A DNA stretch of 64,000 nt from Arthrobacter echini (GTDB taxonomy: Bacteria > Actinomycetota > Actinomycetes > Actinomycetales > Micrococcaceae): positions 157,305 to 221,304 of the forward strand of contig NZ_SSWH01000002.1 in NCBI RefSeq assembly GCF_004803505.1. Reading direction: 5' to 3'. Below are positions 6,117 through 29,356 of the stretch, one piece after another. The notes beneath the pieces are model-generated. The model ran no database searches. It was not told the origin of the DNA and was given only the letters and a program-made list of their open reading frames with translations. The translations under genes were made by a program, and so were the position numbers. Positions within the stretch are counted from its first letter, which is position 1. Each line of letters begins with the position of its first letter.

Positions 6117-6190
6117 CGGGCCTCCTGGTGTCTTGTTGCCTAGCTCGGACGTCCGGTCCAGCACCGCACGCTTGGAAAATGATGGCCTCA

Positions 6191-7678
6191 TCAGTAGGCT
6201 CCGACGGGCTTGAACACGACCTTGATCGTGCGCCACAGAATCATCAGATCTCCCATCACGGACCAGTTCTCCACGTAGTACAGGTCCAGCCGCACGCTCT
6301 CGTCCCAATCCAGATCGGAGCGTCCGCTGACCTGCCACAGACCGGTGAGGCCGGGCTTGATGAGCAGGCGGCGATGCGTGTGCTGCTCGTATCCGGACAC
6401 TTCGCTCAGCAGTGGTGGTCGAGGCCCCACCAGCGACATGTCGCCGCGCAGGACGTTCCAGAACTGGGGCAGCTCATCGAGAGAGTACTTGCGGAGGATA
6501 TGGCCGAGACGTGTCACGCGGGGGTCGTCCCGCAGCTTGAACAGGACGCCGCTCGCCTGGTTCTGATCCTTGAGCAGTTCCAGCTCATCCTCTGCGCGCG
6601 TGACCATGGAGCGGAACTTGAACATCGTGAAACTGGTGAGGTCCTTGCCTGCGCGCTCCTGGGCGAACAATGCGGGTCCGGGACTGTCATGCCGTACCGC
6701 AACGGCCAGAAGAAGGAAGAGCGGCGAGAGGATGGCCAGGACGGTGGCGGAGACGACGACGTCCATGGCGCGCTTGAGCACGTGCCGTCCGCCGCTGAAG
6801 TGCGGGAGTTCCACGTGCATGAGCGGAAGTCCCTCGACCGGGCGCATCGTGATGCGAGGTCCGGCCACGTTGGTGAGCGAGGACGCCAGCACCAGTTCGG
6901 TGTTGGACGCCTCCAGGCGCCAGCCGAGCTGGCGGATGTATGCGCTCCCCTTGCGGAGGTGCCCCGCAACGATCACTGCGTCCGCGCCAATCTCCATGAC
7001 GAACTCCTCGATCCTGCCGAGGCCACTGACAGCAGGTACGACGCGTTCTCCTGTGCGCAGTTCAGTGCCACCGGACTTTCCCTCGTACACGGCACCGACG
7101 ACGTCGTAGGCCGCCCCTGACTTCTTCGCCAGTTGAGCTGCCACATAGCGGACATCGGCAGTGCGGCCCACTACCACCACGCGCGACAGATAGTGTCCGA
7201 GGCGGCTCTGCCGGATCAGCCATTGGCGCCAGAGCCAACGGCTGCCCAGGAGCAGGAGGGTTCCTGCGGGTAGGGCGAAGACGAGCAGACTGCGGTAGTA
7301 CTGCAGATCGAGCAGCACCACGACGATCGCCGTTGCGGCAAAGGTGGACACGCTCGCCCTGACGACCTTGCGGTACTCGCCGGCCCCGGTACCGACCATC
7401 CGCGAGTCCCGCGTGCGGAACAGTGCCATGGCTGCCATCCAACCGACAGCAATGGCCCCACCCAGTCCGAGAACGTACGTTCTACGCTCAGTACTCGCGT
7501 GGAGCGTCACGAGGTTGACGGTCAGCAGCAGGATCCCGAGGATCAGCACGGAGTCGGTGCATGTCAGCGACCTCTGGTAGCGACGCCGCCACGCGGTACC
7601 GGATGCGACGACCTGCTGAGCTGCCGAAATCGCCGGGGCGGAGGAGGCAACAGAAGCGGTGGAGTGGGTCTGCGTCAT
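6191..7678 (-). CDS. Polyprenyl glycosylphosphotransferase (exopolysaccharide initiating enzyme)
   Basis: The 495-residue protein has the layout of WbaP/CpsE-type enzymes. There are about four or five membrane segments in residues 40-155 and a soluble Rossmann-like domain at about 165-285 (VVVVGRTADVRYVAAQL). A membrane re-entrant helix at about 302-330 (KRAMDVVVSATVLAILSPL) precedes the bacterial sugar transferase core at 330-495, with the family motifs FKFRSM, DELPQFWNVLRGDMSLVGPR and GLTGLWQVSGR. It transfers a sugar-1-phosphate from a nucleotide sugar to undecaprenyl phosphate, the first step of a repeat-unit glycan. It is the first gene of the surface-polymer operon, with 74 bp to the cytidylyltransferase. 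No strong ribosome site precedes the chosen ATG, so a slightly different start is possible. Confidence 0.93.
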   Translation of the reverse strand: MTQTHSTASVASSAPAISAAQQVVASGTAWRRRYQRSLTCTDSVLILGILLLTVNLVTLHASTERRTYVLGLGGAIAVGWMAAMALFRTRDSRMVGTGAGEYRKVVRASVSTFAATAIVVVLLDLQYYRSLLVFALPAGTLLLLGSRWLWRQWLIRQSRLGHYLSRVVVVGRTADVRYVAAQLAKKSGAAYDVVGAVYEGKSGGTELRTGERVVPAVSGLGRIEEFVMEIGADAVIVAGHLRKGSAYIRQLGWRLEASNTELVLASSLTNVAGPRITMRPVEGLPLMHVELPHFSGGRHVLKRAMDVVVSATVLAILSPLFLLLAVAVRHDSPGPALFAQERAGKDLTSFTMFKFRSMVTRAEDELELLKDQNQASGVLFKLRDDPRVTRLGHILRKYSLDELPQFWNVLRGDMSLVGPRPPLLSEVSGYEQHTHRRLLIKPGLTGLWQVSGRSDLDWDESVRLDLYYVENWSVMGDLMILWRTIKVVFKPVGAY

Positions 7679-8002
7679 CTCGTACTCGAGCCGCCGCAGG
7701 ATCGTACGAGTGGCAGTACTGCGTCGGGCCGACGTCGATCTCCATCTTCCGGAAGGATGTTGTGGAGGGTTCTCGCTCGACCAACCCGGAGCTCGTTGCA
7801 GGACGAGCTGCCCATGGTCAAGACCCGCTTCTTCACAATCCCCCCGCGCTGTGGAAAAACCCTATACAGCGACCCTAGGAAGCATTCGTCGGCTGCACAC
7901 GAGTACGGTCTACCCGTTCGACCTGAGGGATCTGTGCGGCAACTACCTGCCGACTACTCGGACCTACTACGCATCAGCTCCTGGACTACTTGCCCGACAG
8001 AT
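7679..8002. other. Gene-free interval upstream of the surface-polymer operon
   Basis: These 324 bases lie between the stop of a LAL regulator and the first glycan gene, both on the minus strand. No convincing coding frame is seen. The interval should contain the operon promoter. A weak minus-strand TATAGG box near 7860-7870 is the only candidate I can point to, without a good -35 partner. No clear terminator hairpin was found. Confidence 0.4.
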
Positions 8003-10684
8003 TCATGGCTCACGCAGGTCCTCGCGACGGTTGACGCCGAACTTGGCGAAAATCCGGTAGAGATGGCCTTCCACGGTACGGACCGACACGCCTTTGGAAT
8101 CCGCGATATCGCGATTCGAGTAGCCCTCTCTGACGAGATCAACGATGGAGCGCTCTGTGGGAGTCAGGCGGGGTGCCGTCGCCGAGGGATATGCCGAGAC
8201 GAAGGGCGAAGGCACCGGTCCTTGCCGCTGTTCGCCCAGCATCACGAGACGCCGACGGGTCTCCTGTGCGCGTCTCCTCGAGCCCTGCTCATCGAGACTC
8301 TGGTGGGCGAGCGAAAGTGCTGCGAATTCGAGGGCGACGTTGCCGATACCTGCGGCCGCCGATGCCGCTCCCAGCATCGCATCGCCGTCCCTCGCCTTCG
8401 CCGCCCTGGCGAACTCCAGGAGTATCCGCGCATCGGCGCCCTCCACGTCGGGCAGCAATGCGACGAGCGGATCAAGAGCATTTGTGTTTCCGATGAGTAC
8501 CAGGAGCTGGAGGGCAGTGCTCGCCAACGCCTTCATGTGGTCCCTCTCCGCCTGCGCTGCGAGAGTGAGTAGGTCGGCGCCCGTACGGGTCGTGTTCGGT
8601 AGCAGGTCCATCGTGGCGGTGGCGTAGATCGCACTCGCTGTCCGCACGGCCTGCGAGGTGCTCGACGGAGAGCGATCGAGCTCCCCGATGAGGGACAAGG
8701 CCGAATCGGTCTCGCCGACCAGCGCGCAGGCATAGGCGGCCATTGCTGTCACCAGAGGTACCGACTGAGTGTCACCGCATTCCTTCAGACCCTCACGGGC
8801 GAGGAGGAAGCGATCACGCGCTTCCCTGTTGCGGACGGACCGTAGTGCACGAGTACCGTCGACGAAGTCCGTCCACGCTCCGTAGTAGGTGGCGCTGAGC
8901 GGGTATGCGCGCAGGCATTCATCGAGCAGAGCGATCGCCTCGTCGAGGCGCCCACTGTTCGTCAGCAGGAGCACATGCCTCTCGACTGCGACCTCCCGGT
9001 AGGCGAGCAAGGACGCACCACCGGTCTCGATGTCCTTCAGGGACCGAAGCGTGTAGGTGCTCCCTTCGTCGGTTCGCCCTAGCGTGCCGAGCAGGTCTCC
9101 GAGCAGAACCATGCACGCGACTCGCGATTCCGCCGTCCCGTCAGGGTGCGAAAGGAGAGTGCGCAGGTCCTCCTCGAGCTCTTCGAGCTGTCCCTCGAGG
9201 AGTCGCACCCGGCACTCGAGGATCGCGCATCCCAGCCGGGCACGCACGTAATCCTCGGGGGTCCGGTCGGTTCTAGGCAGACTCTCGATGGCCGAGATGA
9301 GCGACTTCCAGTGCGCGACGTCGCGGCGGAGGTCCTCGTGGGATGACGCCGCCCTCACTCTGAGTTCGAAGGACACGAGAATGCCGTGCTTGGCCACGTG
9401 AAGATCGCGGCAGTCACGCAAGGCCTCGTCGACGAGGTCACGGGCGTGCACCGCGTTCTTCCTGCCGAAATGTGCACGAGCAGTTTCGACCAGTGCACGC
9501 CCACGCAGCGCGGAAGCCGATACCGCTCGTGCCGCCCGCAGTGCGAGGGTGTGATCGCGCAGACCGTTGGCGATGTCAGCTACACCGAGAAGCGTCCTGT
9601 CGTCGGTGGCGGCACCGCCGGCCAGTCTCCAGGAGAACCTCTGCACGGTGCGCTCGGGTGACTCCGGCGCGGGTGGAAGCGCCTCGATGAACGTCCGGCG
9701 AAGACTGATGGTGCGCGCTGTCGGTGCTTGGCTGGCCAGCACGTCTGCATACAGCGGTGGATTCACGCTCACCGTGCGATGGGGCTCCTGTCCTACCACG
9801 ATGAGGCGTTCGTTCAGCAGGTGCGTGAGCACCTCACCGTCGACGTGCCGGGCCAGTACCTCGACCGTCGCCGGCTCCACCAGTGCCACGAACTCCAGCA
9901 CGGCCTTCTCCATGTCGCTTCGGGAACGCAGACGTGCACCGACCAGATCGACGAGCTGCGGATGGAGCACCGGCGTATCGGAGTTCAGGCGCCACACCTG
10001 GGCGACCTGCGTCAAATACCCCTGCGCCTCCCCGTGTCCGAGGACCGTCCGCAGCAGCTTCGGGTTACCACCCGTCGCCACGGCCAGCGTGTGCGCGGTA
10101 CCCGTGAGCACCGGTCCACCGAGTACTCGTTCGCAAAGCGCTCTCACCTCCTCCAGCTCGAGGGGTGCCAGGTTGAAGCGGGTCAGCAGATTATCGGTGC
10201 TGAGGCTCCGGAACTCGGTCGAGGCAGGCGACGAATCCCGCATGATGACGAGAACCCTCGCACGTCGCGCACTGATGAGCTGCGCGAGCAGAGTACTCGA
10301 GCTGCCGTCGAGGTCGTGTGCGTCGTCGACGACGATGAGCGGAGGATGCCGCTCACCACGCGTTGCTCGTCCTCGTGCCAGCTGCGCCATCACGGCGCGA
10401 AGCACTGCGACGGGTGAGTCGTCCTCGCCCGGCGAGAGGTTTCGAAGATACGGCGCGAACGCACCATAGGGGACGCTGCGCAGAGCGGAGTCTCCCCTGA
10501 GCGGAAGGACCGGCGCGCTCCAGTCGAGCTGCTCGAGAACTGCACGTGCCACGGCGGTCTTTCCCACCCCCGCTTCCCCGACGAGTAGTGCACCGAAGCC
10601 GCTCGTATCCCTGAGTGCGACGATGATCTCACTGACCAGGCCAGCTCTTCCGACAAGATCTTCGCCGAATGCTGGGGCGATCAT
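8003..10684 (-). CDS. LAL-type STAND ATPase / LuxR transcriptional regulator (LAL1)
   Basis: The 893-residue protein has an N-terminal NTPase domain with Walker A GEAGVGKT (36-43) and Walker B LIVVDDAH (about 116-123). A long helical TPR-like middle follows, and a LuxR helix-turn-helix lies at about 835-893 (LTPTERSIVDLVREG, SVRTVEGHLYRIFAKFG). MalT/LAL-family proteins hold an autoinhibited ATPase that oligomerises on ligand binding and activates promoters through the C-terminal HTH. The sensed ligand is unknown. The start ATG overlaps the stop of LAL2 by 4 bp, so the pair is coupled. It lies directly upstream of the surface-polymer operon, a likely target (inference). The N-terminal stretch RSVPYGAFAPYL closely matches LAL3 (RSVPFGALAPLL), showing common ancestry. 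Confidence 0.92.
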   Translation of the reverse strand: MIAPAFGEDLVGRAGLVSEIIVALRDTSGFGALLVGEAGVGKTAVARAVLEQLDWSAPVLPLRGDSALRSVPYGAFAPYLRNLSPGEDDSPVAVLRAVMAQLARGRATRGERHPPLIVVDDAHDLDGSSSTLLAQLISARRARVLVIMRDSSPASTEFRSLSTDNLLTRFNLAPLELEEVRALCERVLGGPVLTGTAHTLAVATGGNPKLLRTVLGHGEAQGYLTQVAQVWRLNSDTPVLHPQLVDLVGARLRSRSDMEKAVLEFVALVEPATVEVLARHVDGEVLTHLLNERLIVVGQEPHRTVSVNPPLYADVLASQAPTARTISLRRTFIEALPPAPESPERTVQRFSWRLAGGAATDDRTLLGVADIANGLRDHTLALRAARAVSASALRGRALVETARAHFGRKNAVHARDLVDEALRDCRDLHVAKHGILVSFELRVRAASSHEDLRRDVAHWKSLISAIESLPRTDRTPEDYVRARLGCAILECRVRLLEGQLEELEEDLRTLLSHPDGTAESRVACMVLLGDLLGTLGRTDEGSTYTLRSLKDIETGGASLLAYREVAVERHVLLLTNSGRLDEAIALLDECLRAYPLSATYYGAWTDFVDGTRALRSVRNREARDRFLLAREGLKECGDTQSVPLVTAMAAYACALVGETDSALSLIGELDRSPSSTSQAVRTASAIYATATMDLLPNTTRTGADLLTLAAQAERDHMKALASTALQLLVLIGNTNALDPLVALLPDVEGADARILLEFARAAKARDGDAMLGAASAAAGIGNVALEFAALSLAHQSLDEQGSRRRAQETRRRLVMLGEQRQGPVPSPFVSAYPSATAPRLTPTERSIVDLVREGYSNRDIADSKGVSVRTVEGHLYRIFAKFGVNRREDLREP

Positions 10685-13449
10685 TGCTGTCGCCTGAAGA
10701 TGAGCGACAGCTGTTTTCGGCTGGAGAGTCCGAGCTTGGACATGATCTGGTGTACGTGACCCTCGACGGTACGCGGTGAGATGTGTTCCTGTTGCGCTAT
10801 TTCCTTGTTCGGTACGCCCTGGGCTACTTTCCGGGCAATTGCGCGTTCCCTCTCGCTGAGCAGCTTTCGCCGCTGGTGCCGGCGCGCTGGGATAGCGGTC
10901 CTTCTCAGGATCTGCTCGGCCTGCACACGGATCATCGGATCGTCCGTCTCGACGAGGTGATCGATGCTCAGCGCCGCGAGATCACCGGCAAGATTGGCGT
11001 TCCCCAGCTCAAGGGCCTCGAGCGCCACCTGTTTCAGCGCACCGGGGTCACGCGAGGACAATGCCTTGGCCAATTCCTCCGTCAGCCGGGAGAACCGTCC
11101 CTCGTTCGCAACAGCTGCAGCAGTGAGACAATCCGCGGACTCGTAGCGTCCGAGCTGCACAGCCTGGCACAGGAAGAAGAGCTCAACGCCGCGCAAGCCC
11201 TTCTCGTTGAGGTGACGAGCGTGTTCCAGAAAGTCGATGGAGACGACGTCGGCGGTGCCCAACCACGCTTCGGTCAGGAGCCGGAAGTACAGCACCGCTT
11301 CGCGCAGGTACCAGGGGGAGCGCAGTCTGGTGACATCGACCGCACATAGGTACTGCCGGGCGTCGTCGGAGTCCCCGTTGAGAGCACTGACATAGGCCGC
11401 AGCAGCCTCCGCGAGGGGAAGGAACCCGTACCGATCCCGGACATGAAGCTGGCCGATGGCCGGCTTGAGCTTCACCAGTGCCTCTCCACTCCTTCCGAGG
11501 TAGGCGAGGATCAACCCCTCGGAGAGTTCGAGCGTCGACCTTTCAAGGCCCGGGACAACCTCGTCGCTCTTCTCGCTCACCAGCTCGAGGCACTCGTTCC
11601 AGGACCCGGCCATGAACAGCGAACCCAGGAAATGCCCGAAGGCCATCCCGTGGTCGGTCGGCTTCGACCGCACATCGTCCAGACGCTCGACAACGGCCTC
11701 AGCCGCCCTGATGGCCGCTTCCTGCTCTCCTATACTCGACTGCGCGAAAGCCAGGATGGTCCTGATCCGCAGACTCCCCGGGGTCTCGTTCGCCTGATGC
11801 GCCAGGACACCGGGAGCCCGTGCGCACACCGAATCGAACTCGCCCTCGAAGACATACGCTTCCAGGCGGGCCAGATCGAGCACGGCGCGCAGGTCCTCGT
11901 CAGCACCGCGATGACGCTGCACCTGCGCGCTCACCGCATCGAGCAGAGCGTCCGCCTCCTCCCGTCTGCCGGGTGTTCTCCTCCGAAGACGAGAGGCCAG
12001 GACGTTCGCGTCGACCCAGTCGCGCAGCGCTGTATCATCTGTCAATCCGGGCACCAGGAGATGCTCGACGGTATCGAGAGCGTCCGCCACTGCGCCCTCG
12101 CACCACAACTGACGAGCGCGTTCTATCCCTGCCCTGAGCGACCCTTGGCCTGTCGGCAGAGCGTCGAGGAACCGGGCTGCCATGACATCGAGACCACGGT
12201 CGTTCGCACATTGCGCGAGGCCTGCCAGTTCGGAGCTGTCCGGCACCTCGCCCCGGGAGAGGGACCATGCTGCCAGTGCCAGCGTCGCCTCCATGGGCAC
12301 TCCCGGCGCACTCCGGAGCCGACCGAGCACCTCCAGCGCGTCGACTCCCGCAGCGGAGGTGTACTGACCACGGACGACGTCCGCGAGCACGCCGCAGGAG
12401 AGCCTGAGGAGAGGCTCATCGACTCCATCGGGCATCAGCATTCCCCGGGATTGCAGGGAGTCGAGCGAGGTGGACTGCACTGCCTGCATCAGCAGGGTCA
12501 CGGGTAGGCTGCCGGCAACAGCAAGTACCTCGATCACCGTCCGATCATCGGGTGACATCGTGACAAGCTCGGGTATCTGTCGATCCTCCGTTGCCCAGAC
12601 GACATGCTCGTGCGGCCCGTGACTCATCACCCAGACCCCGTGCTGCGGGAACAGTCGCCCGGAATCGACCGCCGCTTCTGTCGCCATCTGGAGGAACTTC
12701 GGGTTGCCACCGCTCGACGTCCACAATTCCTGGGCTGCAGCCCGGGAGACGGGCGCCTCGAGCGCAGCCGATACCATTTCGGTGGTGGCGTCAAGAGTCA
12801 GGGGCCGGAGATCGATCCGTTCCAGCACTTCGTCTTTCCATAGATCGAAGAATGCTTCTGGCGCACGGAGAAGGTCCTTACAGGTGATGAGCAGGTGCAC
12901 CGCACCCATCCGTGCCAGCTGGACGATCACCGCGGCGGAGTCGCTGTCCACGTCCTCGACTTTGTCGACATGCATGAGGATGCGCCGGCCGGACGAATTT
13001 TCATCGAACATGCGCTGCAACGCGATGAGAATCAGGAGCGGGCTTCTCGTCGTAGCCTCATCGAGCTCGGCCAGCAGAACATTCAGCGCGGCATAGGCGA
13101 CTGTGGAATACGCTGCCGCTCCACGAATATAAACATGGTCGAAATGCGCGGACAAGCTCGACACCGCCTGCTGTGCCACACGTGTCTTACCGGCCCCACC
13201 CGGGCCGACGAGCATAACGCCACCGACCGAGTCCGACCGAAATGCGGCCTCGATCGCGGTGAGTTCATCGCGCCGTCCGGAAAAGGGCCAGCGCAGGTCG
13301 ACACTGCTCATCGACCACAGCCGTCGATCGATCGAACACGACGGAACGCCGTCTGACCCAGCATCGTCGGAACCGCGGAATTCTTCCCCATCGTCAACTA
13401 CCATCCTGAGACGCTTGCGTTGTCCTGTCACTGTATCGCGCGTCTGCAC
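10681..13449 (-). CDS. LAL-type LuxR regulator with degenerate Walker B (LAL2)
   Basis: The frame has 922 residues from a GTG. Later starts are possible because the first 50 residues look non-conserved and no clear ribosome site is seen. Walker A is intact (GPGGAGKT, about 82-89). The Walker B region reads ILMHVDKVED (about 157-166): the usual Asp-Asp pair is Asp-Lys and the following His is missing, so ATP hydrolysis may be impaired. The middle is helical and TPR-like. The C-terminal LuxR HTH is intact (LSERERAIARKVAQG, SPRTVEGHVHQIMSKLG). It overlaps LAL1 by 4 bp and starts 38 bp after pth, so it may be transcribed with rplY-pth. One reading is a pair in which LAL2 binds nucleotide without cycling and LAL1 is the active partner; this is inference. 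Confidence 0.9.
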   Translation of the reverse strand: MQTRDTVTGQRKRLRMVVDDGEEFRGSDDAGSDGVPSCSIDRRLWSMSSVDLRWPFSGRRDELTAIEAAFRSDSVGGVMLVGPGGAGKTRVAQQAVSSLSAHFDHVYIRGAAAYSTVAYAALNVLLAELDEATTRSPLLILIALQRMFDENSSGRRILMHVDKVEDVDSDSAAVIVQLARMGAVHLLITCKDLLRAPEAFFDLWKDEVLERIDLRPLTLDATTEMVSAALEAPVSRAAAQELWTSSGGNPKFLQMATEAAVDSGRLFPQHGVWVMSHGPHEHVVWATEDRQIPELVTMSPDDRTVIEVLAVAGSLPVTLLMQAVQSTSLDSLQSRGMLMPDGVDEPLLRLSCGVLADVVRGQYTSAAGVDALEVLGRLRSAPGVPMEATLALAAWSLSRGEVPDSSELAGLAQCANDRGLDVMAARFLDALPTGQGSLRAGIERARQLWCEGAVADALDTVEHLLVPGLTDDTALRDWVDANVLASRLRRRTPGRREEADALLDAVSAQVQRHRGADEDLRAVLDLARLEAYVFEGEFDSVCARAPGVLAHQANETPGSLRIRTILAFAQSSIGEQEAAIRAAEAVVERLDDVRSKPTDHGMAFGHFLGSLFMAGSWNECLELVSEKSDEVVPGLERSTLELSEGLILAYLGRSGEALVKLKPAIGQLHVRDRYGFLPLAEAAAAYVSALNGDSDDARQYLCAVDVTRLRSPWYLREAVLYFRLLTEAWLGTADVVSIDFLEHARHLNEKGLRGVELFFLCQAVQLGRYESADCLTAAAVANEGRFSRLTEELAKALSSRDPGALKQVALEALELGNANLAGDLAALSIDHLVETDDPMIRVQAEQILRRTAIPARRHQRRKLLSERERAIARKVAQGVPNKEIAQQEHISPRTVEGHVHQIMSKLGLSSRKQLSLIFRRQQ

Positions 13450-13487
13450 GGACTTATCACTGATCGGCCGCGGGTCGGCCGCGTCCT

Positions 13488-14072
13488 CTATTTGCTCGGA
13501 TGAAAGCGCTGCTGCGCCGGAAGAAGACCGTCGGAAATGAGAAGTTCCACTGCGTCTGCCGCATCGTCGAGCAGAAATGGAAGGTCCTTCTTCTCCGCAG
13601 CACCGAAATCCCTGAGGACGAAATCGGCAGGGTCCTGACGGCCCGGTGGTCGTCCTACTCCCACGCGCACGCGGTGATAGTCCTTCGTACCCAGGGCCTT
13701 GCTGATGTCCCGCAGGCCGTTATGGCCGCCTTCCCCTCCACCCAGTTTCAGCCTGACGGTATTGGCGGGTATGTCGATCTCGTCGTGTACGACTATGACA
13801 TGATCCGGCGCGACATCGTGGAAGCGTGCCAGCGTCGCGACAGGTCCGCCGGAGAGGTTCATGTAGGTCAGTGGCTTCGCGAGGACGACCCGGGGTCCCC
13901 CGACACCCAGGCGTCCCTCGAGAGTGACCGCCTGGGCCTTCGAGGACGAGAAACGTCCCTGTACACGGCCTGCCAGCAGATCGAGAACCATCTGGCCTAC
14001 GTTGTGCCGGTTGCCCGCGTAGCCGGGTCCGGGATTTCCCAGCCCGGCTACGAGCCAGGTGTCCGTGGACAC
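13488..14072 (-). CDS. pth: Peptidyl-tRNA hydrolase
   Basis: The 194-residue protein matches Pth in length and motifs. [20 protein letters not shown] at the N-terminus contains the conserved Asn and the catalytic His. [16 protein letters not shown] and the [16 protein letters not shown] segment with its conserved Asp follow, then [13 protein letters not shown]. It recycles tRNA by cleaving peptidyl-tRNA released from stalled ribosomes. It lies 10 bp downstream of rplY, the usual bacterial arrangement. The next gene on the same strand here is a LAL regulator. Confidence 0.97.
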
Positions 14073-14082
14073 AGGTGACTAC

Positions 14083-14742
14083 CTACCGCTCGTCGGCGTC
14101 GGTGACGACAGCATCCCGATCGGCGTCGGGGGCTGTCGCGCCCTCGCTCACGGCCTCGGTGTCCACGTCGGTCTCTTCAGTTTCCTCGGCGTCGCCGAGA
14201 TCCTGCACCACAGGAGCCATGAGGTTGACGATCAGCGTCTCCGGGTCGATGAGGAGCGTGACGCCGGAGGGCAGCTCGATGTCCGAGGCGAGGACGTGCT
14301 CGCCGATCTGGCGGCCCTCGATGCTGACGGTGAGGGTCTCAGGAAGATTCGTTGCATCGGCCTCGACCAGCACCGTGCTGGCCTCGAGGTTGGACACGAC
14401 CTCTGGGGCCGGTTCACCCTCGACGTGGATGGCGACGTCCACCTCGACCTTCTCGCCGCGCCGAACGGTCAGCAGATCAAGGTGCTCCACGATCTGTTTG
14501 ATGGGATCACGCTGGATGTCCTTGACCAGTGCGAGGTGGTCCTCTCCCTCGATGTCAAGAGTCAGCAGGGCGTTGGCGGTACGTACCGCCAGCGTGGTGG
14601 TCTTCGCTGGCAGCAGAACGTGGATCGGATCCGCTCCATGGCCGTAGACCACGCCGGGAATCATGTTTGCGCGGCGCGCCCGCCGCGCCGCCCCTTTACC
14701 GAATTCTGTGCGGACATTTGCAGGGAGTTTTTGCTCGGACAT
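14083..14742 (-). CDS. rplY: 50S ribosomal protein L25 / general stress protein CTC
   Basis: The 219-residue protein is of the long CTC type. The N-terminal L25 domain (about 1-95) binds 5S rRNA (RTEFGKGAARRARRANMIPG, VYGHG). A C-terminal TL5-like beta domain spans about 100-185, and an acidic Asp/Glu-rich tail follows (EETEETDVDTEAVSEG). The start at 14742 is chosen because GGAG lies 5 bases upstream and the family begins with M-(S/A)-E. The frame stays open for about 380 bases upstream, but that stretch has no homologous content. rplY normally follows prs in this phylum; here two LAL genes lie between. Confidence 0.96.
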   Translation of the reverse strand: MSEQKLPANVRTEFGKGAARRARRANMIPGVVYGHGADPIHVLLPAKTTTLAVRTANALLTLDIEGEDHLALVKDIQRDPIKQIVEHLDLLTVRRGEKVEVDVAIHVEGEPAPEVVSNLEASTVLVEADATNLPETLTVSIEGRQIGEHVLASDIELPSGVTLLIDPETLIVNLMAPVVQDLGDAEETEETDVDTEAVSEGATAPDADRDAVVTDADER

Positions 14743-15255
14743 GGTTTCTCCTCGTGACATTGCGGCTCGGCCGGAAGGGCGCAAGCTCTGGGCATTGCCA
14801 GGCGGGAGCAGGTCCGCATGGTTCAGGAATCCGGAGGTACATCCGCACACCAGCCACCGTCGATCACGGAGTCCGGCCGGAAGAGTCTGATCCGGCCCGC
14901 TCCCTCGCCTAGGCACTGTATCCGATGATAGCGCAGGCAACCCTGCGCCTGCGCATCGCCATCGGCCTGCGTCGAACGGAGTGTCCCGCCAGCCGGAGCT
15001 CCTTGTACTTCTGGTTCGATCACAGTCGGACCCGGTTCCAGGGAAAGGCCACGATATACGAGGGTCGGCGGCGGCTGGGGACGAAGTTCCGGTCTCAGGA
15101 GAACTCCTACGCCGCCGACCCAGCATATGGGTCCAAGGAGTCGTCCGCGACGGACAACCCCTCGACGAGAACCACTGTAGGCAGGAGAACTGACCCCCTA
15201 CACGAGTAGTCCGGACGCAACTTTCAGATCACGGTACTCGGATCCTGTTCTTCGA
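14743..15255. other. Gene-free interval between LAL3 and rplY
   Basis: These 513 bases hold no supported gene, although one frame stays open. The interval must contain the end of the LAL3 transcript and probably the rplY-pth promoter. A possible minus-strand -10 (TATCAT at 14925-14930) has no good -35. A nested inverted repeat at 15063-15120 is the clearest element. Confidence 0.45.
15063..15120. other. Nested inverted repeat (structured RNA or terminator candidate)
   Basis: GGTCGGCGGCG at 15063-15073 pairs perfectly with CGCCGCCGACC at 15110-15120. Inside the loop AGGAG (15097-15101) pairs with CTCCT (15104-15108). No U-tract follows on either strand. It lies 135 bases after the LAL3 stop and about 320 bases before rplY. 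It could be a Rho-independent-like terminator of LAL3 or a leader structure of rplY. Confidence 0.5.
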
Positions 15256-17817
15256 CTACCTACCCGCATCACGTCCGCCGGGCGCAGGGAGCAGATCGTT
15301 CATGGTCCCGGGGAGATCCTCACGTCGCACGATCCCCAGTTTGGCGAAGGTTCGGTACAAATGCCCCTCGATGGTTCGTATGGAGACCACCAAATGCCGG
15401 GCGATCGCCCTGTTCGAATACCCATCGGCGGCCAGCAGTGCGATTTCCCGTTCGCGTGGTGTCAACGGCCGCGTGGTCGTCGGTTCGACCGGTTCCATGA
15501 CCGGGCCTCCATCGATCAGCATTCGACGACGACGCACCATCAGGCCGAGCTCTCGTCTGTGGTCCTTGCTACTGCCGGCAGGGAGGAACGTCATCGCCTG
15601 CCGAGTCGCCTCAACGGCCAGCGAGTACTTCTGCAGTGACTCGGCGCGGTCCGCTGTCACCGCAAGAGCCTCCGCGTCCCCCGACGCCAAGCTGGCGGCA
15701 TAGGTATGCAGCACACGTGCCTCGTCACCTTCCAGCGATGCCGTGACCGCAGCAAGCAGGGCCGGGGCACCTGGGTCGCCGAGACCGACGGCGAGCTCGA
15801 GAATCTCCTTCTCTGCGGTCAACCACCCATTTTCCCGGGCCATCCCCGCCTGGCCGAGCAGCTGGGACGTGGCGCCTGAGCCCTGGATGACCCGAGCCGC
15901 GGCGACAAGAGCATGTGCCAGCACGGAATTCTGCGCGCTGCCGCGATCCGTGATCGAGGAGAATTCCGCGAACCACTGTTCCACCTGGTCCGCCTCGCCC
16001 AGGGTTGCGGCTGCCCAGCTGCCGATGCCCAGGCCATAGACCAGCAGTCCGTCCTGGTCGGAACAGCGCAGAGAAACCAGTGCAGGACGAATTTTGGTCA
16101 GTCCGCTCCTGAACCGCCCTTTCCGTACGTCGACTGCCGCATCGAGCACCGCGATACTTCCGCTGCAGAATGCGTAGTCCGAGTCGGTCGCAGCCGTGTA
16201 TTCGCCGAGAGCATCCTCCGCCGTGCCAAGGTCACCGCTGTGCACCACCACGCTCAGGTGGCGTAGGAACGCACCGCGGTACAGGTCGGACACTACCTCC
16301 GGGTGGTCGTCGATGAGTGCCAGAGCAGCTGATCCGTGACGACGTGCCTGGACACTCCTGCCGACGGCCCCGAGAGCTTCCGCGAGGAGAGCGTGCGCTG
16401 ACGTGAGAAGTCGTAGGTCCTCCGATCCTTCGCCGACGATCTGTTCCAGTGACTCGATGGTCTCGCTGTACCGTCCGGCATGATTCGACCAAAGCGCTCG
16501 AAGGATCCGCAGCTCAGGAGTCTCCACAGGACGTCCGTGGACGCTTGCCCCTGCAGAAGACGCTGGTTCCGTCCGGCCGACCTCGTGGAGACAATACGGG
16601 TCGAACCGGGCCATGGCACTGAACCGGGTCGCATCCGCTGCACGGTCCGGGGCTCGGACGGCATCTGCCAGCCGCAGAGCGGAGCGATACTCGCCGGTCC
16701 TCGCAGCCGTAGCCGCAAGTTCCAGCAGACGCCGGTCGGGCACGGTCTCACCGCACTCGAGCTCCCAGAGAGCGCGACGGACCCGGCCGGGAGCGGGCAA
16801 GGTCCGGTCCTTTTGTGTTCCCGGGCCCAGCCGGCGAAGCAGGGTCCTTCTCCTCCCCATCGGAATGACGGTCCGGAAGATCGGATCAGGGAGGTCCCGC
16901 GTGCGGAACCCGATGAACCCCCTGCGGTTCACTCTTCTGAGGAGACCAGCCTGCAGCAAGGATGAAACTGCACTCTCGCTGCTCAGCCGGACCAGGTCGG
17001 TGAGGCTCACGACTTCTGCCAGTACGACGAGTTCGAATGCTGTGCGTTCCAGCGCGCCGAGCTGCAGCACGATGGACCGCGCAACCTGTTGCAGACTCGC
17101 TGGTGCGGCGGAGGCGGTGTCCTTCAGGACCCACACACCATCGATGACGACGAGGGATCCGCACCTGACGGCGTGGTCGACGAGCGCCGGCAGGAACAGC
17201 GGATTACCCGCTGATTCGCGACGGAACCACGAGCTCACGCCCCGGGCGAGATCGTCACCGAGGACCTGACCGCAGAGTGCCAGAACCTCGACATGAGTCA
17301 GTCTCAGCATGGCTTGCTGCTCGACCAGGCCGTCCTCGGCAAGTTGTGCCAGCTCGGTGCAGAGCGCTGTCACCGAGGGCGCGAAACCCGCGATTGCGAT
17401 GTCGCCGCAGCTCGCCAGCTGTGTGAGGAGAATGGCGCTCTCCTGATCCAGAAAATGCATGTCGTCGATGATGAGCAGGACCGTGCGATGTCCGGGTCGG
17501 TTGCGGACGAAGGACCTCACGATGCGCAGAACGGCCAGCGGTGAGTTCAGGTGTCCGGGCGATGCCTCTGCCAGTAGAGGTGCAAGTGCTCCGAACGGGA
17601 CGCTCCTCAGCGTCGGTGTCCCGACCAGGAGGAAGGACTCGAAGTTATCCCTGCAGGCAGCCCGAAGCCGTCGGGCCACGGTGGTCTTTCCCATGCCTGC
17701 GCTGCCGTAGACGAAGACGCCGCAGCCTGACCGGCGCCGCAGTGTATCGCTGATGTCGGCGAGCAGCTCGGTTCTGCTCTCATACTCATAAGCGCCGTGT
17801 CCGGTCGCGGACTTCAC
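15256..17817 (-). CDS. LAL-type STAND ATPase / LuxR transcriptional regulator (LAL3)
   Basis: The 853-residue protein starts at a GTG that overlaps the LAL4 stop (GTGA). It has Walker A GSAGMGKT (38-45) and Walker B VLLIIDDMH (about 113-121), both intact. A long helical middle leads to a C-terminal LuxR HTH at about 785-840 (LTPREREIALLAADG, SIRTIEGHLYRTFAKLG). The N-terminal half resembles LAL1 over the RSVPFGALAPLL and SP-AVLR regions, so LAL1 and LAL3 are paralogues. It probably acts as a ligand-responsive activator. The target and ligand are unknown. It is the second gene of the LAL4-LAL3 pair that separates prs from rplY. Confidence 0.92.
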   Translation of the reverse strand: MKSATGHGAYEYESRTELLADISDTLRRRSGCGVFVYGSAGMGKTTVARRLRAACRDNFESFLLVGTPTLRSVPFGALAPLLAEASPGHLNSPLAVLRIVRSFVRNRPGHRTVLLIIDDMHFLDQESAILLTQLASCGDIAIAGFAPSVTALCTELAQLAEDGLVEQQAMLRLTHVEVLALCGQVLGDDLARGVSSWFRRESAGNPLFLPALVDHAVRCGSLVVIDGVWVLKDTASAAPASLQQVARSIVLQLGALERTAFELVVLAEVVSLTDLVRLSSESAVSSLLQAGLLRRVNRRGFIGFRTRDLPDPIFRTVIPMGRRRTLLRRLGPGTQKDRTLPAPGRVRRALWELECGETVPDRRLLELAATAARTGEYRSALRLADAVRAPDRAADATRFSAMARFDPYCLHEVGRTEPASSAGASVHGRPVETPELRILRALWSNHAGRYSETIESLEQIVGEGSEDLRLLTSAHALLAEALGAVGRSVQARRHGSAALALIDDHPEVVSDLYRGAFLRHLSVVVHSGDLGTAEDALGEYTAATDSDYAFCSGSIAVLDAAVDVRKGRFRSGLTKIRPALVSLRCSDQDGLLVYGLGIGSWAAATLGEADQVEQWFAEFSSITDRGSAQNSVLAHALVAAARVIQGSGATSQLLGQAGMARENGWLTAEKEILELAVGLGDPGAPALLAAVTASLEGDEARVLHTYAASLASGDAEALAVTADRAESLQKYSLAVEATRQAMTFLPAGSSKDHRRELGLMVRRRRMLIDGGPVMEPVEPTTTRPLTPREREIALLAADGYSNRAIARHLVVSIRTIEGHLYRTFAKLGIVRREDLPGTMNDLLPAPGGRDAGR

Positions 17818-20600
17818 GGGTTGCCCGGTGGCAGCAGGAGCTCGTTGAGCTCCACCCGCGAGCTGACGCCGAGTTTCGCGTATGCCCGATACAGGTGCCC
17901 TTCCACCGTCCGCACAGAGAGGAAGACTTCTCGGGCAATGTCATGGTTCCTCCGGCCGGTGGCAGCGAGCGTGGCGATCTCCTTCTCGCGAGCGGTCAGC
18001 ATCGACAGGCGGAGGTCGGCGTCGACCGCCGTCTGTGCGCGGGACGCCAGGTCCGGATCAGTACGACGCCGGCGGGGTCCGTTCTGCCCACGCGTCGCTC
18101 TGGTGGCGGCGCGGAGGTACCCTGGCTGGTGCTCACTGCTCGGAACAGCGGTGCGCATGACACCCAGGAGCGATTCCGGATCGGAGGACATGAGAGCCCG
18201 CACGTACAGCCACCGCACCCGCTCCCGCGATTCATGACTGCTGTCGGAGGAACGGACGAGAGCGGCGAGTGCCTCCCGCCGCCCGAGGCACGCGGCAGCG
18301 GCGAGGCTCGTCAAGGCCCACGCTCCGGCTCCCCGCGCACGATCGTCGGCCGCCCGAGCATGGAAGCCGGCCGCGGCCTGACTCCGGCTCCCGACGCGTG
18401 CAGCGAAACACGTACGGTAGAAAGATGCCGCCCGCCGCATCAGCCAGGAACTGCGCCGTTCGGCATCCGTCAGCGGAAGTCCGGCGGTGACCCGCTGCGC
18501 TGATCCCTCATCCGTACAGCAGAGGGTGAGCGCCGCCGCCGCGAGGTTCAGTATTCCGTGGGGGTCGGCGTCCCGCACCTGCTGCACCACCGTTCGAAGG
18601 GCGGTGCCCGCCTCCTCCCGGCGACCAGCCGCGAGGAGATCGAGTCCCGTCAACAACTGGGCGAGCGAACCGCGTTCGCTGGACCAGGGAATCGCTTGCG
18701 TGCGCTGGGGTGCAGCGGGCAGGGCCTCACCCTGTCCGCCCGTGAGCATGGACGCCAGCCGGACCCGCAGGAGCGCGGCGTCCGCGATGCGGTAGGAGAT
18801 CCGTGGATCTGCCAGCTGCAGCGAGAGCGCGTGGGTCAACTCCGGGTTCGGATGTCCGGCGAGGATGTTCGCCTCGAGCAGGAGAGACTGCGCGGTGACC
18901 TGGAGGCCGCGCTCCTCGACGCTCAGCGCGTCGGGTGAATCGGTGCACACGAGGGAGGTTAGAGCGTCGAGGTTGTCCCGGAAGCGCCCCTCGAAAGCAG
19001 CGAGTTCTGCACGGGCAACCCGGATCCTGCGCTCGAACAGATCCACCTCGCTCACCGCACCAGGAGTGTCCGCCGCCCGACGCCATGCCGAGGTACGGGC
19101 AGCCAACTTCTGGAGCGTCTGCGCTGCCGACGGAATGGAGCTGACGCGCTGCAGCCTCGCCTGTTCGATTCCGCAAGCGACCAGCTTCTCGGGCTCGAGG
19201 TACTCCCTTCTTGCAGCGAGAAGGCCGGCGAAGGCGCTTGCCTCGTCGTAGTGCCCCTGCTGGAGGGCGGCGACCAGTCCCTGACAGCTGATGCATGAGC
19301 GCTTACCTGCGTTCCCGAGCGAGGCGATCAGCCGAATGACGCGACCGTAGTCACCGCTGCCGTCAAGGAGCTGGAGTGCGTGCGCCGTCTCCTCGATGGT
19401 CACCGCTCTACCCGCCTTCAGTCGCCATAGGACGTCACGAACCGGATCCCTGCGAAGATCGTCGAGCGCGCCACCCATGCGGGACAGCCTCGAGTACAGG
19501 TGTGCTGCGACGCTCGGAGACACTGCGTCGGTCAGTCCGGACGCCATGCGGGGAGTCGTGAGGCTGATGCGCGGCATCCGCCGTCCGTCCACCCTGAGCA
19601 ATCCCGCGCTCTGGAGCTCATCGAGATCCGTCGGGTCCGCGATGAGCGCCACGTCGGTCCACGACGGCGAGCCCAGAAGCGCCACCAGGACGAGGATGTC
19701 CCGCTGATTCGCCGAAACCGACGGCCCGCCGGAGAGGAACGCGTCGACACCATGCAGGCACGGGGCCGGATGCTCCGCGTGAACCCAGACATCCTTCCTC
19801 CGCACGAGCGCGGATCGCTGCGTCAGATCTCTGATTCTTTCCAGAATGGAACGCGGGGTCGCGACGGCCACCTCGGCCACGGCTTCGGCGCCCTCCCTGC
19901 TGAGCGGGGCCCCGAGAACGACCTCTGCCAGGAGCCACACCTGCGAGAACGACAGTTCCGGCAGGTCGATCCGCTGCAGATCCCCGGAGCGCCACAGAGC
20001 CAGTAATGAGGGATTAACCTGTGCGGTATCCGTGACCGACAGTACGACGCGTGGTCCGTGAGTAAGTGCGACCTGACCGATCACGGCAATCGGCAGCTCA
20101 TCCAGATGCTCCGCATCGTCGATCACCAGGACGGCCTCCCTGCTACCGGCAGCCTGGTGGACGAGTCGGAGGATCGCCTTGGCGATCAGGGCCGGATGCG
20201 TCAGCTCCGCCGGAAGCCCCGGCACGAGTGATCGAAGACAGTGGTACGGCACAGGTGCGAGCTCCGCTCGGCCATGCAGGACATACGCAGAAGTCAGGCG
20301 CCGTTGTACCTGCTGCAGGAAAGCGGACTTTCCGGACCCGGGAACTCCTGCCACCACGGTTCCCGCGGACCCGATCCGGACGAGGGCTTCGAGGACCAGC
20401 GCGATCTCCTCCTCGCGTCCCACGAAACACTCGGGCGCGGACGCCCGCCATGCTTGCCTCCCCGCAGCTTCTCGCGAGGACCGCACCGGTGGGCGGACGG
20501 CCGAACCGTCGACGAGATTCTGCGGGCACATGGAGGACCGACTTCCCTGGTGTGACGCTTCCTTGAGAAGAAGCGTAGGAAGTCGACCGGGGCGCAGCAC
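17814..20600 (-). CDS. LAL-type STAND ATPase / LuxR transcriptional regulator (LAL4)
   Basis: The protein has 928 residues from a GTG at 20600; an ATG at 20531 is an alternative. The GTG is favoured because a TAGCGT box lies exactly 6 bases before it, as in leaderless actinobacterial transcripts, while neither start has a ribosome site. Walker A is GVPGSGKS (about 85-92) and Walker B is VLVIDDAEHLD (about 157-167). The TPR-like middle is Ala/Arg-rich, and the LuxR HTH lies near 860-915 (LTAREKEIATLAATG, SVRTVEGHLYRAYAKLG). It is the first gene of the LAL4-LAL3 pair, about 100 bp after prs on the same strand. Its ligand and targets are unknown. Confidence 0.9.
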   Translation of the reverse strand: MLRPGRLPTLLLKEASHQGSRSSMCPQNLVDGSAVRPPVRSSREAAGRQAWRASAPECFVGREEEIALVLEALVRIGSAGTVVAGVPGSGKSAFLQQVQRRLTSAYVLHGRAELAPVPYHCLRSLVPGLPAELTHPALIAKAILRLVHQAAGSREAVLVIDDAEHLDELPIAVIGQVALTHGPRVVLSVTDTAQVNPSLLALWRSGDLQRIDLPELSFSQVWLLAEVVLGAPLSREGAEAVAEVAVATPRSILERIRDLTQRSALVRRKDVWVHAEHPAPCLHGVDAFLSGGPSVSANQRDILVLVALLGSPSWTDVALIADPTDLDELQSAGLLRVDGRRMPRISLTTPRMASGLTDAVSPSVAAHLYSRLSRMGGALDDLRRDPVRDVLWRLKAGRAVTIEETAHALQLLDGSGDYGRVIRLIASLGNAGKRSCISCQGLVAALQQGHYDEASAFAGLLAARREYLEPEKLVACGIEQARLQRVSSIPSAAQTLQKLAARTSAWRRAADTPGAVSEVDLFERRIRVARAELAAFEGRFRDNLDALTSLVCTDSPDALSVEERGLQVTAQSLLLEANILAGHPNPELTHALSLQLADPRISYRIADAALLRVRLASMLTGGQGEALPAAPQRTQAIPWSSERGSLAQLLTGLDLLAAGRREEAGTALRTVVQQVRDADPHGILNLAAAALTLCCTDEGSAQRVTAGLPLTDAERRSSWLMRRAASFYRTCFAARVGSRSQAAAGFHARAADDRARGAGAWALTSLAAAACLGRREALAALVRSSDSSHESRERVRWLYVRALMSSDPESLLGVMRTAVPSSEHQPGYLRAATRATRGQNGPRRRRTDPDLASRAQTAVDADLRLSMLTAREKEIATLAATGRRNHDIAREVFLSVRTVEGHLYRAYAKLGVSSRVELNELLLPPGNP

Positions 20601-20704
20601 GAGTGGACGCTACGGATACGTGACGGCACCATACTCGCATCGGGTGCCTGCGTGTGATACGCCGTACTCATTTTTTGCCGTAGGACTACCTGGGCCTTGG
20701 GCCC

Positions 20705-21685
20705 TTACGCTATGCCGTCGAAGAGACTCGTCACCGAGCCGTCGTCGAACACCTCCCGGATGGCGCGGGCGATGAGCGGGGCGATCGACAGGACGGTCAA
20801 CTGCGGGAAGCGCTTCTCGGAGGGAATGGGCAAAGTATTCGTGACCACCACTTCCCGGGCCCCGGACTCGGCGAGCCGCCGGGCGGCGTGATCGGAGAAG
20901 ACGGCGTGCGTTGCGGCGATGATCACGTCCTTGGCGCCGGCGTTCTTGAGCACCTGCACCGCGCCGGAGATGGTTCCCCCGGTATCGATCATGTCGTCGA
21001 TGAGGACGCAGGTGCGCCCCTCGACCTGACCCACCACCTGCTTCGACACCGCCTGGTTGGGCATCGTGAGGTCCCTGCTCTTGTGCACGAAGGCCAGGGG
21101 TGCACCGCCGAGCCGCTCCGCCCACTGCTCCGCCACGCGCACGCGACCGGTGTCGGGCGAGACCACCGTGATGTTCTCGGCGTCGACCCTGGTGCGGATG
21201 TAGTCGGCCAGCAGCGGGATGGCCATCAGGTGATCGACGGGTCCGTCGAAGAAGCCCTGGATCTGCGAGGTGTGCAGATCCACGGACATGAGCCGGTTGG
21301 CTCCTGCCGTCTTGTACATGTCCGCCACGAGGCGGGCCGAGATGGGTTCGCGTCCGCGCCCCTTCTTGTCCTGCCGCGCATAGGGGTAGAAGGGCGAGAC
21401 GACGGTGATGCGCTTGGCCGAGGCACGCTTGAGCGAGTCGACCATGATCAGCTGTTCCATCAGCCAGTTGTTGAGCGGCGCCGGATGCGCCTGGATGACG
21501 AAGACGTCGGTGCCCCGCACACTCTCGCCGGAGCGGACGTAAATCTCCCCGTTGGCGAAGTCGTAGGCCGAGACCGGGAGGAGTTCGGTACCGAGCCAGG
21601 ATGCGATCTCCTCGGCCAGTTCGGGATGCGCGCGCCCGGAGGCCAGCACCAGTTTCTTCTCGCCGCGTGCCGTGATCTCGCTCAT
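20705..21685 (-). CDS. prs: Ribose-phosphate pyrophosphokinase (PRPP synthetase)
   Basis: The 326-residue enzyme makes PRPP from ribose 5-phosphate and ATP for nucleotide, His, Trp and NAD synthesis. Visible family motifs are YDFANGEIYVRSGESVRG near residue 45, PFYPYARQDKKGRGREPIS (flexible ATP loop), SVDLHTSQIQGFFD and the PRPP loop VLIDDMIDTGGTI at about 225-237. The start ATG at 21685 shares ATGA with the glmU stop. The longer open frame upstream runs antiparallel to nothing useful and lies inside glmU in another frame. The glmU-prs coupling is the conserved actinobacterial order. Confidence 0.97.
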   Translation of the reverse strand: MSEITARGEKKLVLASGRAHPELAEEIASWLGTELLPVSAYDFANGEIYVRSGESVRGTDVFVIQAHPAPLNNWLMEQLIMVDSLKRASAKRITVVSPFYPYARQDKKGRGREPISARLVADMYKTAGANRLMSVDLHTSQIQGFFDGPVDHLMAIPLLADYIRTRVDAENITVVSPDTGRVRVAEQWAERLGGAPLAFVHKSRDLTMPNQAVSKQVVGQVEGRTCVLIDDMIDTGGTISGAVQVLKNAGAKDVIIAATHAVFSDHAARRLAESGAREVVVTNTLPIPSEKRFPQLTVLSIAPLIARAIREVFDDGSVTSLFDGIA

Positions 21686-23196
21686 GCCTGTCCGCCTTCG
21701 TGTGGTTCTGCTGGGGAATCGGACCCCTTGCCGGCCGTCGCCGCTTCGGCCGCCGCGGTTCCGGGGCGGTGTGAGGCAGTCCAGTCCGGCATGGTGCGCT
21801 GCGGCATCACGCTCAGGCCCAGTGCTCCGGCGGGGACGTCCTTGCGGATGACGGCGCCGGCACCGGTGTAGGCGCCGTCGCCGATCGACACCGGCGCGAC
21901 GAACACGGTGTTGGATCCGGTCCGCACGTGGGAGCCGATCGTGGTGCGGTGCTTGTTCACGCCGTCGTAGTTGGCCGTGATGTTCCCGCACCCGATATTG
22001 GTGTGCTCCCCGATCTCGGTGTCCCCCGCGTACCCGAGGTGGGAGAGCTTCGAGCCGCGGCCGACGACGACGTTCTTCGTCTCGTAGAAGGCACCGATCT
22101 TGCCCTCCTCCCCGAGGACGGTACCGGGTCGCAGGAACGTGAAGGGCCCGACGCTGGCACCTGCCCCGATGCGTGCCCCGCTGCCGTGGGTTCGCATCAC
22201 CTGTGCTCCCTCTTCCACGACGACGTCGGTGAGTGTCGTGTCAGGGCCGATCACCGCGTCCCTGGCGATCGTGGTGCCACCGTGCAGCTGGGTGCCCGGG
22301 AGGATCGTCACGTCCTCGTCGAGTTCCACGGAGACGTCGATCCAGGTGCTCGCGGGGTCGGTGATGCTGACGCCGGCGCGCATCCAGCGTTCCAGGATGC
22401 GCCGGTTCAGTTCTGCCCCGAGGCCGGCCAGTTGCACCCGGTCGTTCGCCCCCTCCACCTGCCAGCGGTCCTTCACGAGGAGGCCCGCCACCCGGCCGCC
22501 GTCCTCGCGGGCGAGGCCGAGCACGTCGGTGAGGTAGAGCTCACCCTGCGCGTTGTCGGCGTCGATACGTCCCAGAGCAGACCGGAGCGCGGCCACGTCG
22601 AACGCGTAGATCCCCGAGTTGACCTCCGAGATGACCAGTTGGTCCTCGTCGGCGTCCTTGTGCTCCACGATCCCGGTCACCGTTCCGTCCGCTGCACGAA
22701 TGATGCGACCATAGCCGCTCGGGTCCTCGAGCTCGGCGGTGAGCACCGTGGCGGCGTTGGCCTGCTGCTCGTGTGCGGTCACGAGAGCCCGCAGCGTGGC
22801 GGCCTCCAGCAACGGCACATCCCCGTAGGTGACGACGACCGTGCCCCGGGTAGCGGCGTCGCGCTCATCGAGCGCGGCAAGGGCCACCTGCACGGCTCGT
22901 CCTGTCCCGGGTACGTCGTCCTGGTCCACCAGGAGCGCCGACTCGTCGAGGGCCGTGATGTGCTCGGCGACGAGATCGCGTTCGTGCCGTACGACGACGA
23001 CGAGGTCGCGTGGTGCGACGCCCCGCGCCGCTGCGAGCGCGTGTCCCACCATGGACTGCCCTCCGAGGAAGTGCAGGATCTTCGGGGTGCGCGACTTCAT
23101 CCGGGTTCCTGCGCCTGCTGCCAGGACGATCACCGCTGCCGGCCCGTCCGCCGAATGATGCGGCCGTACTGTCTGGTCTGCGCTCTGGGGGCTCAC
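21682..23196 (-). CDS. glmU: Bifunctional GlmU (UDP-GlcNAc pyrophosphorylase / GlcN-1-P acetyltransferase)
   Basis: The 504-residue enzyme catalyses the last two steps to UDP-GlcNAc for peptidoglycan. The N-terminal uridyltransferase has LAAGAGTRMKSRTPKILH (about 24-41), the GDVPLL aspartate and the NSGIYAF segment. The C-terminal left-handed beta-helix has hexapeptide repeats and the acetyltransferase motifs FLRPGTVLGEEGKIGAFYE and NITANYDGVNKHRT. The start is taken as the GTG at 23196, which has AGGAG about 10 bases upstream. The frame is open further to 23328, but that would overlap tRNA-Gln. It is coupled to prs by a 4-bp overlap. Confidence 0.96.
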   Translation of the reverse strand: MSPQSADQTVRPHHSADGPAAVIVLAAGAGTRMKSRTPKILHFLGGQSMVGHALAAARGVAPRDLVVVVRHERDLVAEHITALDESALLVDQDDVPGTGRAVQVALAALDERDAATRGTVVVTYGDVPLLEAATLRALVTAHEQQANAATVLTAELEDPSGYGRIIRAADGTVTGIVEHKDADEDQLVISEVNSGIYAFDVAALRSALGRIDADNAQGELYLTDVLGLAREDGGRVAGLLVKDRWQVEGANDRVQLAGLGAELNRRILERWMRAGVSITDPASTWIDVSVELDEDVTILPGTQLHGGTTIARDAVIGPDTTLTDVVVEEGAQVMRTHGSGARIGAGASVGPFTFLRPGTVLGEEGKIGAFYETKNVVVGRGSKLSHLGYAGDTEIGEHTNIGCGNITANYDGVNKHRTTIGSHVRTGSNTVFVAPVSIGDGAYTGAGAVIRKDVPAGALGLSVMPQRTMPDWTASHRPGTAAAEAATAGKGSDSPAEPHEGGQA

Positions 23197-23270
23197 GAGG
23201 TGGGAACTCCTACCTTTGGTCTGCTGGCCGATCCCGCATCCTGCGATGCAGGGTACCGGGGCTTGCGCCG

Positions 23271-23342
23271 TTCCGCCCATAGGATTCGAACCTATACTCC
23301 ACAGCTCCAAAGGCTGGGGTGCTGCCATTACACCAGGGCGGA
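23271..23342 (-). tRNA. tRNA-Gln (anticodon TTG)
   Basis: The minus strand folds as a 72-nt cloverleaf. The acceptor stem TCCGCCC (from 23342) pairs with GGGCGGA (23272-23278), discriminator A. The D-arm is GTGTAATGGCAGCAC, the anticodon loop is CTTTGGA with TTG as anticodon, and the T-arm is TAGGTTCGAATCCTA. CCA is not encoded. It lies just upstream of glmU. Confidence 0.95.
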
Positions 23343-27421: not shown

Positions 27422-27454
27422 CGTGCATCCCCTCGTTCACCGGATCCGGACAAC

Positions 27455-27496: not shown

Positions 27497-27528
27497 GGTT
27501 ACCCGGTTATTATCGTGTGCTGTCCTGC

Positions 27529-29184: not shown

Positions 29185-29215
29185 GGGACAATCCTTTGCT
29201 CTATGTCACGGTGCT

Positions 29216-29355: not shown

Positions 29356-29356
29356 A

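Follow-up and report, generated by a model that had tools for sequence, protein, structure and literature searches.

Ancient paired LAL regulators of Arthrobacter and a candidate promoter element shared with surface polysaccharide operons

The window analysed here, a 64,000-nucleotide stretch of the Arthrobacter echini genome, carries two tandem pairs of LAL regulators, pair A (LAL1-LAL2) and pair B (LAL3-LAL4). We consider it probable that these are paralogous copies of one ancient pair of MalT-like STAND activators whose members are inherited together, and that the two partners of each pair form a hetero-oligomer at GTA-N5-TAC sites, from which they would activate both their own operons and polysaccharide operons. 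The partners fall into two co-inherited types, the types differ in their ATPase motifs across the family, and a promoter element recurs at LAL pairs and ahead of polysaccharide genes.

On the minus strand, the genes are ordered glmU-prs-(LAL1-LAL2)-rplY-pth-(LAL3-LAL4)-sugar transferase-cytidylyltransferase-GT4-CDP-alcohol phosphatidyltransferase (Table 1). An earlier note, made from the sequence alone, had described four LAL genes in two overlapping pairs, and both the genes and their 4-bp overlaps (GTGA for LAL1/LAL2, ATGA for LAL3/LAL4) were borne out by an ORF check and by Pfam domains. Pfam annotation also agrees with its placement of rplY-pth between the pairs and of a polysaccharide operon adjoining downstream. 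LAL3 begins 38 bp past pth. The glycosylphosphotransferase at the head of the polysaccharide operon scores 411.8 bits against TIGR03025 (cut-off 295.6).

Table 1. Features of the LAL locus, with positions in the window.
Feature	Position	Strand	Basis or remark
LAL1, type 1 (position 1), pair A	17814..20600	-	AAA_16 + GerE; type-1 clade
LAL2, type 2 (position 2), pair A	15256..17817	-	AAA_16 + GerE; type-2 clade
LAL3, type 1 (position 1), pair B	10681..13449	-	AAA_16 + GerE; AlphaFold model
LAL4, type 2 (position 2), pair B	8003..10684	-	AAA_16 + GerE; AlphaFold model
rplY (L25/CTC family)	14083..14739	-	PF01386, PF14693
pth, peptidyl-tRNA hydrolase	13488..14072	-	PF01195
prs + glmU, constant upstream neighbours of the locus	20705..23328	-	
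Exopolysaccharide polyprenyl glycosylphosphotransferase, operon head, presumed target	6191..7678	-	PF02397; TIGR03025
Remaining polysaccharide operon: cytidylyltransferase-like, GT4 glycosyltransferase, CDP-alcohol phosphatidyltransferase, 274-aa protein	2787..6338	-	
P1, before LAL1	20572..20613	-	GTAGCGTCCACTCGTG-N20-TACGCT, 1 mismatch
P2, between LAL2 and rplY	15174..15216	-	GTCCGGACTACTCGTG-N21-TACAGT, 1 mismatch
P3, before polysaccharide operon	7872..7913	-	GTAGACCGTACTCGTG-N20-TAGGGT, exact
Four GTAGT half-site copies upstream of P3, spacing 19, 13, 11 bp	7942..7989	-	Read directly
Conserved leader hairpin downstream of P2, ~61 nt	15062..15122	-	

To follow the pairs through the genus, we gathered LAL regions from 38 Arthrobacter genomes and obtained 147 LAL ORFs, arranged as 69 tandem pairs (one of them from G028, which belongs to another family) and nine unpaired ORFs, five of which are fragments. 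The members of a tandem pair lie on the same strand, and most well-bounded gaps between them measure -8 to +17 bp. In a FastTree phylogeny of 136 full-length proteins, upstream partners (type 1) and downstream partners (type 2) fall on opposite sides, with one very divergent upstream exception, and the split is kept in a tree of 250 sequences that adds loci of other genera. Five apparent exceptions to it are explained by type1-type1-type2 triplets that were mis-assigned by greedy pairing. In both trees LAL1 and LAL3 are of type 1 and LAL2 and LAL4 of type 2. A maximum-likelihood tree to which single LALs from other families were added as outgroups supports type 2 with an SH-aLRT of 99 and type 1 with 92; at type 1, one divergent type-1 protein falls outside and one outgroup row is nested inside. 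The paired genes are adjacent and co-directional, type 1 comes first, and the trees keep the two types apart; the order type 1 to type 2 holds across Micrococcaceae and in another family.

The histories of the two partners mirror each other. Distance matrices of position-1 and position-2 proteins correlate with r=0.958 over 63 pairs, and 2000 random re-pairings within genomes never gave a correlation above 0.60. Together with the trees of 136 and 250 sequences and the outgroup tree, this correlation upholds the history proposed in the earlier note, an ancestral pair that was duplicated. The duplication itself stands; it was not recent, the pairs being old and divergent (23-30% identity among the four window LALs). 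The same low identity is what could be said for a separate acquisition of each gene, with pairing as a coincidence of insertion, and the clean split and mirrored subtrees reject that history, to which we assign hardly any probability. On these trees, the paired LAL history reaches far beyond the window.

The surroundings of the pairs suggest which of the two is the older resident. Elsewhere in the family, a LAL pair directly follows prs-rplY-pth and stands ahead of a sugar transferase, and in another family a LAL pair also lies beside a sugar transferase. These positions indicate that pair B is probably still at the ancestral site and that pair A was probably inserted between prs and rplY in Arthrobacter.

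The two types also differ in sequence motifs, which were compared in 136 type-1 and 110 type-2 proteins. At the second Walker-B acid, 90% of type-2 proteins have D, and in type 1 this position holds N in 66% and D in 11%. The sensor-I Arg is found in 78% of type 2 versus 19% of type 1. At a winged-helix column, H accounts for 42% of type 2 and lies outside the five commonest residues in type 1; the corresponding His holds ADP in resting MalT (PMC10427625). Type 2 therefore tends, by alignment, to retain three ATPase or ADP-sensing residues that are usually lost in type 1, and this motif loss may entail reduced hydrolysis in type 1. Within the window, pair B fits the family asymmetry at two of the three places: LAL3 has K at both the second Walker-B acid and the sensor-I position, where Arg is absent, and LAL4 keeps the Walker-B DD and the sensor-I Arg. 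Pair A is hardly asymmetric, since LAL1 retains the Walker-B D and LAL2 is without the sensor Arg. The winged-helix His is absent from all four window LALs in the alignment.

The co-inheritance of the partners and the complementarity of their ATPase motifs are consistent with hetero-oligomeric switches. The same pairs might instead be separate homo-oligomeric activators, linked by a shared transcript and similar targets, and we regard this as unlikely though a real contender. MalT, the model STAND activator, acts as a homo-oligomer (PMC10427625), Walker A is intact and the full HTH is kept in both types, and linkage alone yields mirrored trees. A few singletons of either type exist, indicating that one partner is sometimes dispensable to the other. 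Physical linkage does account for part of the mirroring, but it leaves over the rarity of partner loss: at 25-35% identity such loss is very rare, and the gene order is fixed. Furthermore, losing ATPase residues mainly in one partner would be odd for a stand-alone STAND switch.

The four proteins (853-928 aa) are ordinary members of the LAL and STAND groups. Each has a Pfam AAA_16 domain at the N-terminus (38.6-46.5 bits, cut-off 32.6) and a GerE domain, the LuxR HTH, at the C-terminus (40.5-58.1 bits, cut-off 23.5). Walker A, GK[TS], is present in all four, and Walker B is altered in LAL3. The P of the STAND GxP motif occurs in 100% of type 2 and 75% of type 1 and in each of the four window LALs, LAL1 having A instead of G. 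Structures predicted with AlphaFold for LAL3 and LAL4 (pLDDT 87.6 and 89.5, respectively) have the arrangement expected of STAND proteins, in which a modelled NOD fold (NBD-HD-WHD) is followed by superhelical repeats. The best Foldseek match in the PDB for both is the TPR STAND protein 6mfv, and MalT (8bob) ranks second for LAL4 and eighth for LAL3. VIA-align superposes the NOD of LAL4 on CED-4 (Z 20.2) and its repeats on MalT domain III (Z 18.6), although the repeats also align with other superhelical proteins. LAL4 is not a MalT orthologue by the curated NCBIfam model NF003420, against which it scores 18.9 bits (cut-off 537) through the HTH alone. Foldseek also lists Avs3 among the matches of LAL3, as might be expected if the LALs were Avs-like, STAND-type anti-phage sensors. 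This identity is highly improbable, given that a LuxR DNA-binding domain occupies the effector end, that PADLOC matches are confined to the HTH and that the locus keeps its position beside prs-rplY-pth. The protein encoded at 29357-31498 was tried as a fifth LAL (LAL5) and rejected, because Pfam found no ATPase domain beside its LuxR HTH.

Across the genus, the gap between LAL4 and the transferase contains GTAGT-like copies and a conserved GTA-N5-TACTCGTG, with a TANNNT hexamer 20 bp further on. These features define a 14-letter pattern, GTA-N5-TACTCGTG-N20-TANNNT, as a candidate promoter element. If TANNNT is the -10 hexamer, the centre of the inverted repeat falls near -43, the usual place of class-II LuxR-type activators. 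The exact element has two matches in the window genome, P3 and one before a PgaC/IcaA-like operon; the latter stands ahead of a second polysaccharide operon (L266 2623-8212, contig C33) with a PgaC/IcaA-like GT2 and two polysaccharide deacetylases. The earlier note had suggested the surface-polymer operon as a plausible target, and the presence of the common element at P3 ahead of that operon supports its candidacy.

In the 38 genomes the exact element has 52 matches, spread over 31 genomes, and neither the reversed pattern nor one with a scrambled core has any. More than half of these matches (29/52) are no further than 5 kb from a LAL gene, in regions that make up 0.73% of the genome (binomial p ~3e-48, a value that treats hits as independent though the genomes are related). 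When up to one mismatch is permitted, the element precedes 18 of the 20 pair-A operons of the genus, at the same place as P1, and occurs within 500 bp after 34 of 65 type-2 genes; block-shuffled sequence gave none. The genes behind the sites include LAL pair A, the priming transferase, the PgaC/IcaA-like GT2, a sugar dehydrogenase-like protein and SARP regulators. Family-wide, the element is found in 44 of 245 genomes and its reversed control in none.

The distribution of the element bears on whether it belongs to the LALs or to another regulator, such as the LuxR-type protein at 29357-31498 or a response regulator, for which the LAL pairs would be targets or neighbours. Such an assignment is improbable in our view, although the 29357-31498 protein also bears a LuxR HTH and one genus genome (G042) has three elements with no LAL pair detected. 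By genus, the element co-occurs with LALs: all ten element-positive genera of the family have LAL pairs, and the element is absent from the LAL-negative genera sampled. The exact element was not found in several LAL-positive genera (g20, g21, g25, g96, g106, g110, g115). Two genomes, G019 and G048, have the element, and a LAL5 homologue was not found in them between ABC-F and glmU. In G042, a contig end interrupts prs and rplY is close to a contig end, so that pair A may fall in an assembly gap at the pair-A site; this genome is uninformative as a counter-example.

Position P1 affects the reading of LAL1 as well. Because the element (20613-20572) crosses the first codons called for this gene, its true start is probably elsewhere, at the ATG at 20531. 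The earlier note had reported a distinctive N-terminal sequence common to LAL1 and LAL3. This claim is weakened by the overlap with P1, by the 25% identity of the two proteins across their full length and by the very low predicted confidence of LAL3 residues 1-42 in the AlphaFold model. What the two have in common, judging from the trees, is membership of the type-1 clade.

Downstream of P2 lies a hairpin that also recurs in the genus. A pattern search found 36 copies of roughly 65 nt each, and in 35 of them the promoter element stands no more than 500 bp upstream, while 33 come after a LAL stop; the copy at position 287235 of G018 seems to be a chance match inside a coding region. Compensatory changes occur at eight of 15 predicted pairs, fold z-scores are -3.7 and -4.3, and the letters GAGACC...GTCC are invariant. 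The window hairpin has no Rfam match up to E 1, and no copy matching it was found behind P3. The hairpin was rejected as an intrinsic terminator, as a T-run does not follow. We put it forward as a possible new RNA element that belongs to polysaccharide operons.

These observations can be assembled into a mechanism for the hetero-oligomeric pair. A signal, which we guess to be a cell-envelope or sugar metabolite, would bind the superhelical sensor, whereupon ATP would replace ADP. The type-1 partner would usually contribute a degenerate nucleotide-sensing site and type 2 a canonical one, and the co-translated partners would assemble into a single hetero-oligomer. Its LuxR-type domains would then occupy GTA-N5-TAC sites whose centres lie some 43 bp ahead of the transcription start, and would recruit RNA polymerase there. 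Its targets would be the pair's own operon (P1), the exopolysaccharide operon (P3) and the PgaC/IcaA-like synthase operon elsewhere in the genome, and probably also rplY-pth-LAL3-LAL4 through P2, with positive feedback through P1 and P2. A wider proposal is that such switches are obligate hetero-oligomers throughout the family, with a degenerate and a canonical partner and a dedicated promoter module (a site near -43 plus the leader hairpin), controlling surface polysaccharides and their own synthesis as a transcriptional counterpart of paired NLRs. We advance this only tentatively, as a reading that could nearly as easily be right as wrong.

A close counterpart is MalT, the E. coli maltose activator and prototype of STAND/LAL proteins, which likewise has about 900 aa, a NOD ATPase, a superhelical sensor, a LuxR HTH and multiple promoter sites upstream of its operon. 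However, MalT is a single gene whose product is a homo-oligomer, whereas the Arthrobacter LALs come as two paralogous partners whose ATPase motifs complement each other. The actinobacterial LALs RevU, SCO0877/SCO7173 and AbsR2 resemble them in domain architecture and size, but their described roles concern antibiotics or phosphate, as pathway or pleiotropic regulators; neither type-1/type-2 pairing nor polysaccharide targets were found for these in the literature searched. In the same genus, the AirR cluster III LuxR genes of Arthrobacter sp. UMCV2 encode large ATPase-type LuxR proteins, and some airR genes are induced by dimethylhexadecylamine (PMC9659744). In the portion of that study available, the genes are taken singly and the tandem pairs, the locus and the promoter element are not reported (PMC9659744). 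Paired plant NLRs such as RRS1/RPS4 and RGA4/RGA5 are genetically linked STAND pairs with divided roles (PMC9975942). They offer a functional analogy alone, being divergently transcribed immune proteins, unlike the co-directional, overlapping LAL pairs with their DNA-binding domain. The literature searched, with subscription papers mostly outside reach, contained no description of paired LALs, and neither the paired organisation nor the motif asymmetry nor the promoter module turned up in it.

Actinobacterial LALs are common and mostly orphan, in that their partners, sites and targets are not known. The comparison made here yields a rule for partnering, proposes a binding site together with the geometry of its promoter, and names operons that may be targets; each of these can be tested in Arthrobacter strains that grow in culture. 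Should the heteromer prove real, bacterial STAND switches can split nucleotide sensing between two paralogous subunits, like some immune receptors, and a LAL pair would be a simple system for studying divided nucleotide sensing.

Several further observations were made in the course of this work. The 274-aa protein of the polysaccharide operon (2787-3611, minus strand) has no Pfam or NCBIfam match, and its homologues elsewhere in the genus sit behind the same promoter element (L268, L273, L282). A tRNA-Gln (23270-23342, minus strand) overlaps the start of the longest glmU ORF, which places the glmU start further downstream. Between glmU and ABC-F (24018-33697, minus strand) lie genes for two dynamin-like GTPases, a protein of unknown kind, a LuxR-HTH protein that lacks an ATPase domain and an Hsp70-like protein, a block conserved in many, though not all, genus genomes. 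The record WNZI01000020.1 (L170), titled Vibrio cholerae strain 35D, contains Arthrobacter-type LAL pairs and looks mislabelled. Finally, SARP (BTAD) regulator genes of one family stand directly behind a LAL-type promoter in five genomes (L278, L279, L283, L291, L296), an arrangement that suggests a regulatory cascade.
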